DNA of 43,747 nt from NCBI GenBank assembly GCA_012521215.1, contig JAAYMU010000153.1, forward strand, positions 1 through 43,747. Direction: 5' to 3'. The notes beneath the pieces were generated by a model. That model was not told the origin of the DNA. It did not search any database and worked only from the letters and a program-made list of their open reading frames with translations. The stretch comes from Peptococcaceae bacterium (GTDB lineage: Bacteria; Bacillota; Desulfitobacteriia; Desulfitobacteriales; Syntrophobotulaceae). A program made the translations under genes and the position numbers. This document shows positions 22,364-25,281 of the stretch, in pieces. Numbering within the stretch: position 1 is the first letter of the stretch; each line of letters begins with the position of its first letter.

Positions 22364-24274
22364 TTAAATTCCTAATCCTTTTCTTTTGTTCAGAATATGG
22401 GCCTCAATGTTATCGGCAACCGTAACAGGATCGTCTCCTATGGTAATTTTCCCGCCTGTAAGACCCTCAACGTCTTCCGTGAGAAGTTTTACCAAATTGG
22501 GTGCTCCTGTGACAAAAGGTGTGGGGGAAAGATGAGTATAGGCCCCGAAAGCGACGGCAAACACCCCATCAATAGTGGCTTTTTGTTCCATCCATTCCGG
22601 TGCGGTTACGGCAATTGGGAGCTGGGGAACATCCACATCGAGATGATCGGCCAGGGCAGTAACCAACATGGAAATCCTGCCGGTATCCGTACAGGTGCCA
22701 AAACTTAGTACCGGAGGGATATGGAGAAGGCTGCAAACGGTTATAAGCCCTTCTCCCGCCATAGCGATGGCCTCCAGGCTGCACAAGCCGGCTACTTCCA
22801 GTCCGTGGTTACCACAGCCGGCAGAGACAATTAGTATATCGCGCTTAATTAATTCCTTGGCCAGGTTTACAGTATTCCAGTCCTGAGGACCGTTTCTTAA
22901 TGAACTGCAGTTGACCAGGGCCACTACTCCTTTGATTTCCCCTCCTGTAATAACATCAACCAGTGGATCCAGCTTATTTCCCAAAGCTGCTAGGACAGCC
23001 TCGGTAGAAAAGCCGGCTATGGCTTTTTGGATCCGTTTCGGGACATAGGGTTTTACTTTTCCATGGCGCTTTTTAAAGTTCTCAATCCCCAGATCAATTA
23101 ACCTCTCAGAGATTTCATCTGCTTGGGGAGGAAAATATGGTATCTTTTCCTGAATTCGCGGTACGCCGATAATGGTGCTGATGGCAACCAAGGCTACCTG
23201 ATATTTTTCGGCATAAGAGTCTATAGCCGGTGGCGAACAATTCTCTTCCATAGCTAAAACATCGACAGCACCGGTAGCCAGCATGGGCTCGATGGTCAGC
23301 CAGTTGCCCATAAGTCCCACGAAGACGTCATCCACAGGATAGCGTTGCAAAAGCTCCTGACCGGTTTCAATTGAGCCGACGGCCCGGATACCCTTGGCGC
23401 CTGCCGCCTTACCCTTTTCTTGGTATTTTGGATCATGTAGTTTTTCAATAGTAAGAGCCCCGATCCATGGTTGGTGGCCGTTAAAAGCGATATTGATATA
23501 ATCCGGATCCAAGATTCCTAAGTCAGTGTTAACTTCATGGGGTGTGGGGGTGCCGAAAATAATATCCTGAACCATTTCCAGTCCGATTTGCGAATTGTAG
23601 ATGGTGGCCAGTCCCAAACGCAGAGCTTTAAGGGCCAAAGAGGTATAATCACCATCCACATTTGTAAGACTGCTGGCTACGCAATTTTGTTCCTCATGAA
23701 CGGTCCCAGCCGGGTAGATGTTTAGCTTTCTCCATACTTCTTTTCTTTTTTTGGGAGCGAAGGCTTCAACCATAAGGTTGGGTTCTTGGGGACTGATGTG
23801 CTGCTGAGCTTCCAGTAGATCGGCCATCTGCACAGCCAGTTGTTTAATATCCTGGTTGGTATTGATCCCTAGCTTTTCGCACATCCATTTAAGTTTATTT
23901 TCATCTTTAATTTGAAAGGGTGAAGTACCTTCGCCGATGGATCTTAAGGTACGGTAGGCTTCATAGGCATGATGGCTGTATGTTCCGGCTCCCAGCGTGT
24001 TTTGGATCAAGAGCTTGCGCATGGCATTGGCGTCCGGCCCGATGCCGCAAACCCCTTTGTCCATGCCTTTATCGGGTAGCCAGCGACAGGGACCATGGGA
24101 ACAAAGCTGGCAGCTTAAACCTTGCAAACAAAACTTGCAGCGGATTTTTTCCTGCTGCATCCAACGGTCAAAGACATTAGTCATGCCGTCTTCTCTTATT
24201 CTTACTAACATTTCTTCCACTGAATCATGATAGCTAACCCGGCCTTCTGCTTTTTCTAAAATCCTTTCGCTCAT
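22364..24274 (-). CDS. cooS: Deviant CooS: CO-dehydrogenase-like hybrid-cluster protein, probably not a CO dehydrogenase
   Basis: 636 residues, the full length of the CooS catalytic subunit. The N-terminal cluster region reads CKFCLQGLSCQLCSHGPC (C46, C49, C55, C58, C63, then C76). C55, C58, C63 and C76 fit the B cluster; the CxxC pair C46/C49 replaces the usual C-x7-C and suggests a [2Fe-2S] D cluster, as in Desulfovibrio CODH. For the catalytic C cluster, H267, C346, C456, C487 and C528 and the lysine K565 are conserved. The position of Cys295 of C. hydrogenoformans CODH-II is Glu303 (GSIETGQELL against GICCTGNEVL), and the proton-path histidines 93 and 99 align with Y99 and E105. It is a lone gene without cooC or acs partners. 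Alignment is from memory. Confidence 0.88.
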   Translation of the reverse strand: MSERILEKAEGRVSYHDSVEEMLVRIREDGMTNVFDRWMQQEKIRCKFCLQGLSCQLCSHGPCRWLPDKGMDKGVCGIGPDANAMRKLLIQNTLGAGTYSHHAYEAYRTLRSIGEGTSPFQIKDENKLKWMCEKLGINTNQDIKQLAVQMADLLEAQQHISPQEPNLMVEAFAPKKRKEVWRKLNIYPAGTVHEEQNCVASSLTNVDGDYTSLALKALRLGLATIYNSQIGLEMVQDIIFGTPTPHEVNTDLGILDPDYINIAFNGHQPWIGALTIEKLHDPKYQEKGKAAGAKGIRAVGSIETGQELLQRYPVDDVFVGLMGNWLTIEPMLATGAVDVLAMEENCSPPAIDSYAEKYQVALVAISTIIGVPRIQEKIPYFPPQADEISERLIDLGIENFKKRHGKVKPYVPKRIQKAIAGFSTEAVLAALGNKLDPLVDVITGGEIKGVVALVNCSSLRNGPQDWNTVNLAKELIKRDILIVSAGCGNHGLEVAGLCSLEAIAMAGEGLITVCSLLHIPPVLSFGTCTDTGRISMLVTALADHLDVDVPQLPIAVTAPEWMEQKATIDGVFAVAFGAYTHLSPTPFVTGAPNLVKLLTEDVEGLTGGKITIGDDPVTVADNIEAHILNKRKGLGI

Positions 24275-24292: not shown

Positions 24293-24314
24293 TTACTAAA
24301 AGAATCATTAGTAA
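24293..24314. promoter_or_regulatory. Palindrome upstream of cooS, probable operator
   Basis: TTACTAA (24293-24299) is perfectly inverted as TTAGTAA (24308-24314) across 8 bases. It lies 18 bases upstream of the cooS start codon, just beyond the ribosome binding site (AAGGGATGAG on the minus strand), and within the only 83-base stretch that can hold the cooS promoter. The half-sites ACTAA/TTAGT resemble those in the array at 4889-4940, but spacing and polarity differ. Confidence 0.45.
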
Positions 24315-24346
24315 GTATGTCCAGTAAGGGAAGAAATAATTTAGCT

Positions 24347-24384
24347 TAAGAAAAGAATAGGCCCTGGATTGTGTCCAGGGCCTA
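24347..24384 (-). terminator. Intrinsic terminator of the hom-thrB operon
   Basis: TAGGCCCTGGA (24358-24368) pairs perfectly with 24374-24384 around a 5-base loop. On the minus strand it is followed by TTCTTTTCTTA. It includes the thrB stop codon and separates thrB from the independently transcribed cooS. Confidence 0.88.
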
Positions 24385-25281
24385 CTTTTCCAAGATCACT
24401 GCTCCTTGGGAGTCAATGTCCAGGATTAGAGATTCGGCTTTTAGGGAATGTTTGCTCAGTTCTTGCTTCATGATATTCGCTATTCCGGGTGCGCAGTCCG
24501 CAGGACTAAAGGCCAGAAGGGTTGGCCCCGAGCCGCTTAAGATCGCACCGTATGCCCCGTTCTGCACAGCCTGGGACAAAGCGTCCTCCATTCCCGGGAT
24601 GAGAGATGCTCTTTGATTTTGATGAATCTTATCTTGGGTAGCAATTTTCAGCAGGTCATAGTCCTCGCGAATTAAACAATCTACCAGTAGACCTACGCGA
24701 GAACAATTAAAGGTAACATCTTTGCGGGCTAGATGGGAAGGCAGTATTCTTCTGGCTTTTCTCGTTTCCAGCAAAAAATCGGGGATTACTACTACAGCCT
24801 TAAATTTAGGATTTTTGGCCAGCACTCTGGGAATAATACCGTTTTCAGTCATGACGGTTAAAGTAATTCCACCATATAAGGCCGGAGTGACATTATCGGG
24901 GTGGCCTTCAAAAGAGGTGGCAAGTTTAAGCAGTTCATTTTTTTTCAGAGGATATCCCGCTATAGCATTGGCGGTTAAGAGACCGGCTACTACGGCGGTA
25001 GAACTGCTGCCCAACCCTCTGGTAGGTGGTATATAACTCTCAATGGTGACCTTTAACGGTTGAGGCTCAAAACCGATCTGTCTCCATAAAGCACAGGCTG
25101 ATTTCCAGAAGATATTTCTTTTGTTGGGGGCAATGAAACGGGTATATTTTCCTTTGAGTATAAATTTTGCTGAATTACTGATTTCTATTCGGAATAGATT
25201 ATACAGACTTACAGCCAACCCCATACAGTCGAACCCTGGTCCAAGATTTGCTGAAGTTGCTGGTACTTTAACGATCAACAT
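24382..25281 (-). CDS. thrB: Homoserine kinase
   Basis: 299 residues, a GHMP-family kinase that phosphorylates homoserine to O-phosphohomoserine for threonine synthesis. The N-terminal VKVPATSANLGPGFDCMGLA and the ATP-binding loop PPTRGLGSSSTAVVAG (residues 85-100) are classic, as is GPTLLAF near the C-terminus (SGSGPTLLAF). The start has GGAGGAAG upstream. It follows hom by 67 bases on the same strand, so homoserine is made and phosphorylated from one transcript. Threonine synthase (thrC) is not in the window. Confidence 0.97.
   Translation of the reverse strand: MLIVKVPATSANLGPGFDCMGLAVSLYNLFRIEISNSAKFILKGKYTRFIAPNKRNIFWKSACALWRQIGFEPQPLKVTIESYIPPTRGLGSSSTAVVAGLLTANAIAGYPLKKNELLKLATSFEGHPDNVTPALYGGITLTVMTENGIIPRVLAKNPKFKAVVVIPDFLLETRKARRILPSHLARKDVTFNCSRVGLLVDCLIREDYDLLKIATQDKIHQNQRASLIPGMEDALSQAVQNGAYGAILSGSGPTLLAFSPADCAPGIANIMKQELSKHSLKAESLILDIDSQGAVILEK

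Follow-up and report, generated by a model that had tools for sequence, protein, structure and literature searches.

Among described proteins, the closest relative of the gene studied here is CooS-V (CODH-V) of Carboxydothermus hydrogenoformans, whose structure is available in several states (PDB 7B7Q, 7B7T, 7B95, 7B97 and 7B9A). Of the six C-cluster ligands of carbon monoxide dehydrogenases (CODHs), Cys295 is the sole one not conserved in CooS-V, being replaced by a glutamate (Jeoung et al. 2022, PMC9311411). This Glu295 ligates a [4Fe-3S-nO] hybrid cluster, with Glu556 as a further ligand; both nickel and CO activity are absent, and the cluster restructures reversibly with its redox state (PMC9311411). 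The same study describes the Cys295-to-Glu exchange as a synapomorphy of the subclade, linked with Gly41-to-Cys, and reports that changing this residue of CODH-II to Ala or Glu (C295A, C295E) leaves the enzyme without Ni and without CO oxidation. It also records a very slow reduction of hydroxylamine (kcat 0.13 per s), far below that of the hybrid-cluster proteins (HCPs) and of R. rubrum CODH, and no reduction of NO above background. Thus, neither NO nor hydroxylamine is established as the real substrate, and CooS-V probably has a true function other than hydroxylamine reduction. A structural group, D-1, with the Cys-to-Glu exchange and an HCP-like active site had been described earlier within clade D of the Ni-CODHs (Inoue et al. 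2019, PMC6344411). More recently, a 2026 genomic survey (PMC13056359) described clade D genes from genomes that also have active CODHs, HCP being the most frequent companion; 64% of these genes are without an associated neighbor, and the survey suggests redox-sensing or regulatory roles for the clade. An explicit statement on genomes with clade D alone was not found in that survey.

The window, i.e. the whole 43,747-nucleotide stretch of DNA that was analysed, codes on its minus strand for a CooS homolog in which, according to the original prediction, a glutamate replaces a C-cluster cysteine. The gene and the residues discussed below are:

22364-24274, minus strand: cooS-V-type gene (P0001), 636 aa, assigned from its reading frame, profile match, tree, identity and fold
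24128-24139, minus strand: C46-x2-C49, bridging [2Fe-2S] (D-cluster) motif, from alignment and PMC9311411
24047-24112, minus strand: C55-x2-C58-x4-C63-x12-C76, [4Fe-4S] B-cluster motif, from alignment and PMC9311411
23474-23476, minus strand: codon CAC of H267, equivalent to CooS-V His259, from alignment
23366-23368, minus strand: codon GAA of E303, equivalent to CooS-V Glu295 and at the site of CODH-II Cys295, from alignment, the role of Glu295 being taken from PMC9311411
23237-23242, minus strand: N345-C346, equivalent to CooS-V Asn337-Cys338, from alignment
22907-22909, minus strand: codon TGC of C456, equivalent to CooS-V Cys449, from alignment
22814-22816, minus strand: codon TGT of C487, equivalent to CooS-V Cys480, from alignment
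22691-22693, minus strand: codon TGT of C528, equivalent to CooS-V Cys521, the persulfide site, from alignment
22586-22588, minus strand: codon GAA of E563, equivalent to CooS-V Glu556 and HCP Glu494, second glutamate ligand of the hybrid cluster, from alignment, PMC9311411 and PMC6344411

Rechecking of codons and residues reproduced the predicted minus-strand frame, the GAA codon at 23368-23366 and the retention of five of the six C-cluster ligands (H267, C346 with its TGT codon at 23239-23237, C456, C487 and C528). In phmmer alignments with 6t7j and 6elq (CODH-IV), the cysteine of the CODH motif GxCCTGNEVL lies opposite E303 in an ungapped block, with no cysteine at position 295. Glu303 is also present in contigs of a sister species and is therefore not a sequencing error. 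In columns derived from tblastn searches, this position is Glu in 126 of 126 CooS-V-type rows and Cys in all five true CODHs of the same order, and E563, which sits two residues before K565, is equally fixed (126 of 126), the 126 rows counting some loci twice. C49 corresponds to Cys41 of CooS-V, and its column contains Cys in 123 of the 123 family rows that reach it and Gly, as is usual in true CODHs, in the five CODHs of the order. The spacing of the B-cluster cysteines is identical to that of CooS-V (C47-x2-C50-x4-C55-x12-C68).

A sequence search of solved structures recovered CooS-V as the best match (7b7q and its four sister entries, E-value 8e-246), with 58% identity over 626 residues and a single gap, whereas the next structure, a true CODH, followed at an E-value of 1e-123. 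The folds most similar to an AlphaFold2 model of the protein (mean pLDDT 84.6) are 7b9a and 7b7q (TM 0.96, rmsd 1.5-1.6 Å), which match it better than any true CODH does. A maximum-likelihood tree of 41 proteins places the protein, as the original prediction would have it, with the CooS-V-like sequences and apart from the true CODHs with 100/100 support; the branch of the C. hydrogenoformans protein is long, yet its split from the true CODHs is stable. All the published hybrid-cluster ligands of CooS-V are present, including the second glutamate, E563. The two proteins have in common the fold, the full ligand set with Glu295 and Glu556, the [2Fe-2S] and [4Fe-4S] motifs and the status of a lone gene. 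Likewise, comparison with structural group D-1 uncovered no difference among the features considered, namely the Glu in place of the first C-cluster Cys, the type III-like D-cluster (C46-x2-C49) and the Glu two residues before the catalytic-site Lys. With the Ni,Fe-CODHs (CODH-II and CODH-IV) the protein shares the scaffold, the B-cluster and five of the six C-cluster ligands, but it differs in having Glu for Cys295 and Cys at the Gly41 position, is only 31-36% identical, and lies outside their clade. With the class I Hcps it shares the Prismane/CODH family fold, equivalently placed Glu and His ligands and, by prediction, a hybrid cluster, but the sequence match amounts to just 25-33 bits, with 30-33% identity over a part of the length, and the score against TIGR01703, the hydroxylamine reductase family (45.7 bits), is well under its cut-off of 360.8.

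Together, the tree, the identity, the fold and the ligands lend good support to the view that the window gene is an ordinary ortholog of CooS-V with the protein chemistry predicted by homology, given that CooS-V has the same Cys295-to-Glu exchange, published as defining its subclade. The proposal that this is a hybrid-cluster enzyme rather than a CO dehydrogenase is borne out to that extent, and its portrayal of CooS-V as a deviant CODH with a missing cysteine, an iron-sulfur-oxo cluster and slow hydroxylamine turnover agrees with the published account (PMC9311411); the cysteine-to-glutamate switch and the hybrid cluster are accordingly already published and not new. While ortholog status, ligands, fold, gene isolation and the absence of a true CODH from the genome were obtained in this analysis, the nature of the cluster, the lack of CO activity, the redox switching and the slow NH2OH turnover are taken from the C. 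hydrogenoformans protein, and we infer from this one characterised ortholog, at 58% identity, that the window protein behaves likewise.

We hence propose that the gene very probably encodes a CooS-V-type enzyme with a Ni-free hybrid cluster, which does not oxidize CO and most likely reduces a small molecule. The protein would be a homodimer built on the CODH scaffold. It would have a bridging [2Fe-2S] cluster and a B-cluster of the [4Fe-4S] type, and the site of the Ni,Fe C-cluster would be taken by a [4Fe-3S-nO] hybrid cluster with His267, Glu303, Cys346, Cys456, Cys487, Cys528 and Glu563 as ligands. Electrons from a donor would enter via the [2Fe-2S]/[4Fe-4S] chain and pass to the hybrid cluster; the reduced, open [4Fe-3S] cluster would bind the substrate, and oxidation would close the channel through a persulfide on Cys528. 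This architecture of a [2Fe-2S] cluster, a B-cluster and a gated hybrid cluster suggests a reductase of a small oxidized molecule operating at low potential.

Two other readings of the protein deserve consideration. That it could be a true Ni-CODH, which has retained CO oxidation with Glu303 standing in for Cys295, might be argued from the five ligands that are kept and from NCBIfam, whose model for the catalytic subunit of anaerobic CO dehydrogenase it matches with 855 bits (cut-off 478). However, the nickel enzymes use a set of five cysteines and one histidine, from which the protein departs at the Cys295 position; its closest solved relative, with the same ligands, is devoid of both Ni and CO activity, CODH-II with the C295E exchange contains no Ni and is inactive (PMC9311411), and a genome with neither acetyl-CoA synthase (ACS) nor another CooS has no visible CO pathway, making this reading extremely unlikely. 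The possibility that the protein is a redox sensor or regulator and not a metabolic enzyme might be argued from the fact that the cluster of CooS-V is reversibly restructured by redox state while the substrates offered to it are turned over very slowly (PMC9311411), and such roles are those put forward for clade D (PMC13056359). We nevertheless regard it as improbable, since the gated channel and the fully conserved active site suggest catalysis and no conserved regulatory partner gene is seen in 96 neighborhoods.

The gene is flanked by a convergent phosphoglycerate-mutase-like gene and, upstream on the same strand, by thrB-hom. Two features lie in the interval before the gene:

24356-24386, minus strand: terminator-like hairpin after thrB, between thrB and cooS-V
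24313-24323, minus strand: TGGACATACTT, a weak and speculative candidate for the -10 of a forespore-type promoter, the best overall match having 3 mismatches

The hairpin separates the gene from thrB and implies that cooS-V must have its own promoter and is a lone gene, as the original prediction had noted in pointing to the lack of cooC, acs or cooF neighbors; that remark in fact understated the absence of acs, since ACS is missing from the whole genome. Clustering of ORFs across 96 neighborhoods (the window and 95 loci, with some regions represented more than once) uncovered no conserved partner gene, the commonest neighbor cluster besides CooS-V itself being a generic ABC ATPase in 16 of the 96. 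Searching the window against Rfam gave no RNA element.

At 96% completeness, the window genome comprises 2.5 Mb in 234 contigs and encodes exactly three Prismane-family proteins, namely the CooS-V-type protein and two class I HCPs (with an MFCYQCQ start). Neither a second CooS nor an acetyl-CoA synthase (ACS, CdhC) was detected in it, in contrast to the four true CODHs of C. hydrogenoformans. The same combination of CooS-V and HCP and nothing else is seen in four other genomes (G061, G051, G063 and G069), the last of which is a finished, single-contig genome from the same family. Of the 32 CooS-V-carrying genomes in the class with a completeness of 95% or more, 4 have CooS-V alone. Beyond these, CooS-V is the sole CooS-type gene in 15 of the 31 genomes that contributed loci from other groups (e.g. 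L080, L084, L097, L120 and L131), 14 of the 15 not being metagenome-assembled genomes by their titles; they include Clostridium tetanomorphum, C. acetireducens, C. thermopalmarium, C. sardiniense and Fonticella tunisiensis. Besides the window genome, at least 15 others among those searched thus have CooS-V as their only CooS-type gene, in many cases alongside HCP, and the published statement that CooS-V-type genes occur solely beside other CODHs no longer holds for present-day genomes, although this is a remark on distribution and is no part of what defines the protein. The presence of CooS-V in genomes devoid of any CODH, such as that of the window and the finished genome from its family, shows its role to be independent of CO metabolism, and the culturable C. 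tetanomorphum, C. acetireducens and C. thermopalmarium offer clean knockout backgrounds devoid of CODH. Furthermore, as databases still label CooS-V proteins as CO dehydrogenases, genome-based claims of CO use for such organisms would be wrong. A search of plasmids recovered just distant CooS/Hcp sequences.

In the tree, the window gene clusters among Lachnospiraceae-type sequences and others from unclassified Clostridia, to which it is 82-85% identical (support of 100/100 and 100/99 for the smallest starred sets), while the CooS-V genes of its own family are 73-75% identical and fall outside this group. This pattern suggests that the gene was acquired by horizontal transfer within Clostridia. 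An 81% identical CooS-V is found on a 1.16 Mb contig of a genome named as Calditrichota (Calditrichales bacterium MX18-03), so that either the gene has crossed between phyla or the genome is misnamed. A clade-D-like CooS (L053; G049:C20:36033-37889) has the equivalents of Asn345 and Glu563 along with Gln564, and retains the Cys and Gly of true CODHs; in the 41-protein tree it lies adjacent to but outside the CooS-V clade, with 100/100 separation, and would make a good intermediate. The genome that carries it also has a CooS-V.

Examination of the regions upstream of the family revealed a two-block element, CATATTT-N~12-GAGCAAACTT, before cooS-V in Desulfosporosinus, with related forms in Clostridium, located about 60 nt upstream of the gene in both (e.g. 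L012, L070, L094 and L125). In its general form, CATA-N~15-G..AAACT, it is found at a near-constant distance before the gene in 38 of 90 distinct family members, against 0.22 expected from Markov shuffles, and a strict search over the order matched almost exclusively cooS-V itself, the few other matches (L159-L164) forming no recognizable regulon. The upstream regions were also scored with the consensus strings of the B. subtilis sigma factors. With up to 2 mismatches, the sigma-F consensus occurs in 47% of 92 family upstreams and 16% of 685 neighboring ORFs, and that of sigma-G in 50% and 24%, whereas those of sigma-A, B, E and H are not enriched in the same comparison. These strings are supported in outline by PMC3789822. 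The conserved element resembles forespore sigma-F/G promoters, which we treat as a lead, and not a result, as regards a promoter role.

A possible if tentative explanation of this sequence pattern is that the protein is a low-potential hybrid-cluster enzyme made in the forespore from a sigma-F/sigma-G promoter, where it would shield the spore during development or germination from oxidized nitrogen or oxygen species. Besides the frequency of the element and the selective enrichment of the two forespore consensus strings, this is consistent with a -10 half like that of spoIIR in the same genomes, with the lack of CooS-V in those genomes of the order that have neither gpr nor spoIIR, and with the control of sodA, rubrerythrin and catalase genes by sigma-G in C. 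difficile (PMC3789822). However, the sequences are related and not independent, the -35 half of spoIIR (GTTTAAA) differs from CATATTT, just two independent lineages lack sporulation, and the element is missing from more than half of the family upstreams, including that of the window gene. The broader notion that CooS-V is a stand-alone family apart from CO metabolism, retained in clostridia without any CODH, induced in the forespore in many species and with a role in sporulation or germination, appears doubtful on the present sequence data. Of the results that go beyond the published finding, which also include the lack of conserved neighbors and the suggested horizontal transfer, the occurrence of CooS-V alone and the promoter-like element of forespore type merit most attention.

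Regulation by sigma-B was set aside, its consensus not being enriched; the apparent parallel in C. difficile, a sigma-B-controlled cooS (CD0174), is in an operon with two oxidoreductases and is not established as being of the CooS-V type (PMC7494833). As promoter yardsticks, the upstream regions of gpr were uninformative on account of unclear start sites, and a weight matrix trained on spoIIR was left out of the scoring, being dominated by near-identical Desulfosporosinus sequences. In four Dehalobacter-like genomes without CooS-V (G052-G055, matches L160-L163), the two-block element is found upstream of a 66-aa ORF, where it lies directly before a terminator-like hairpin.
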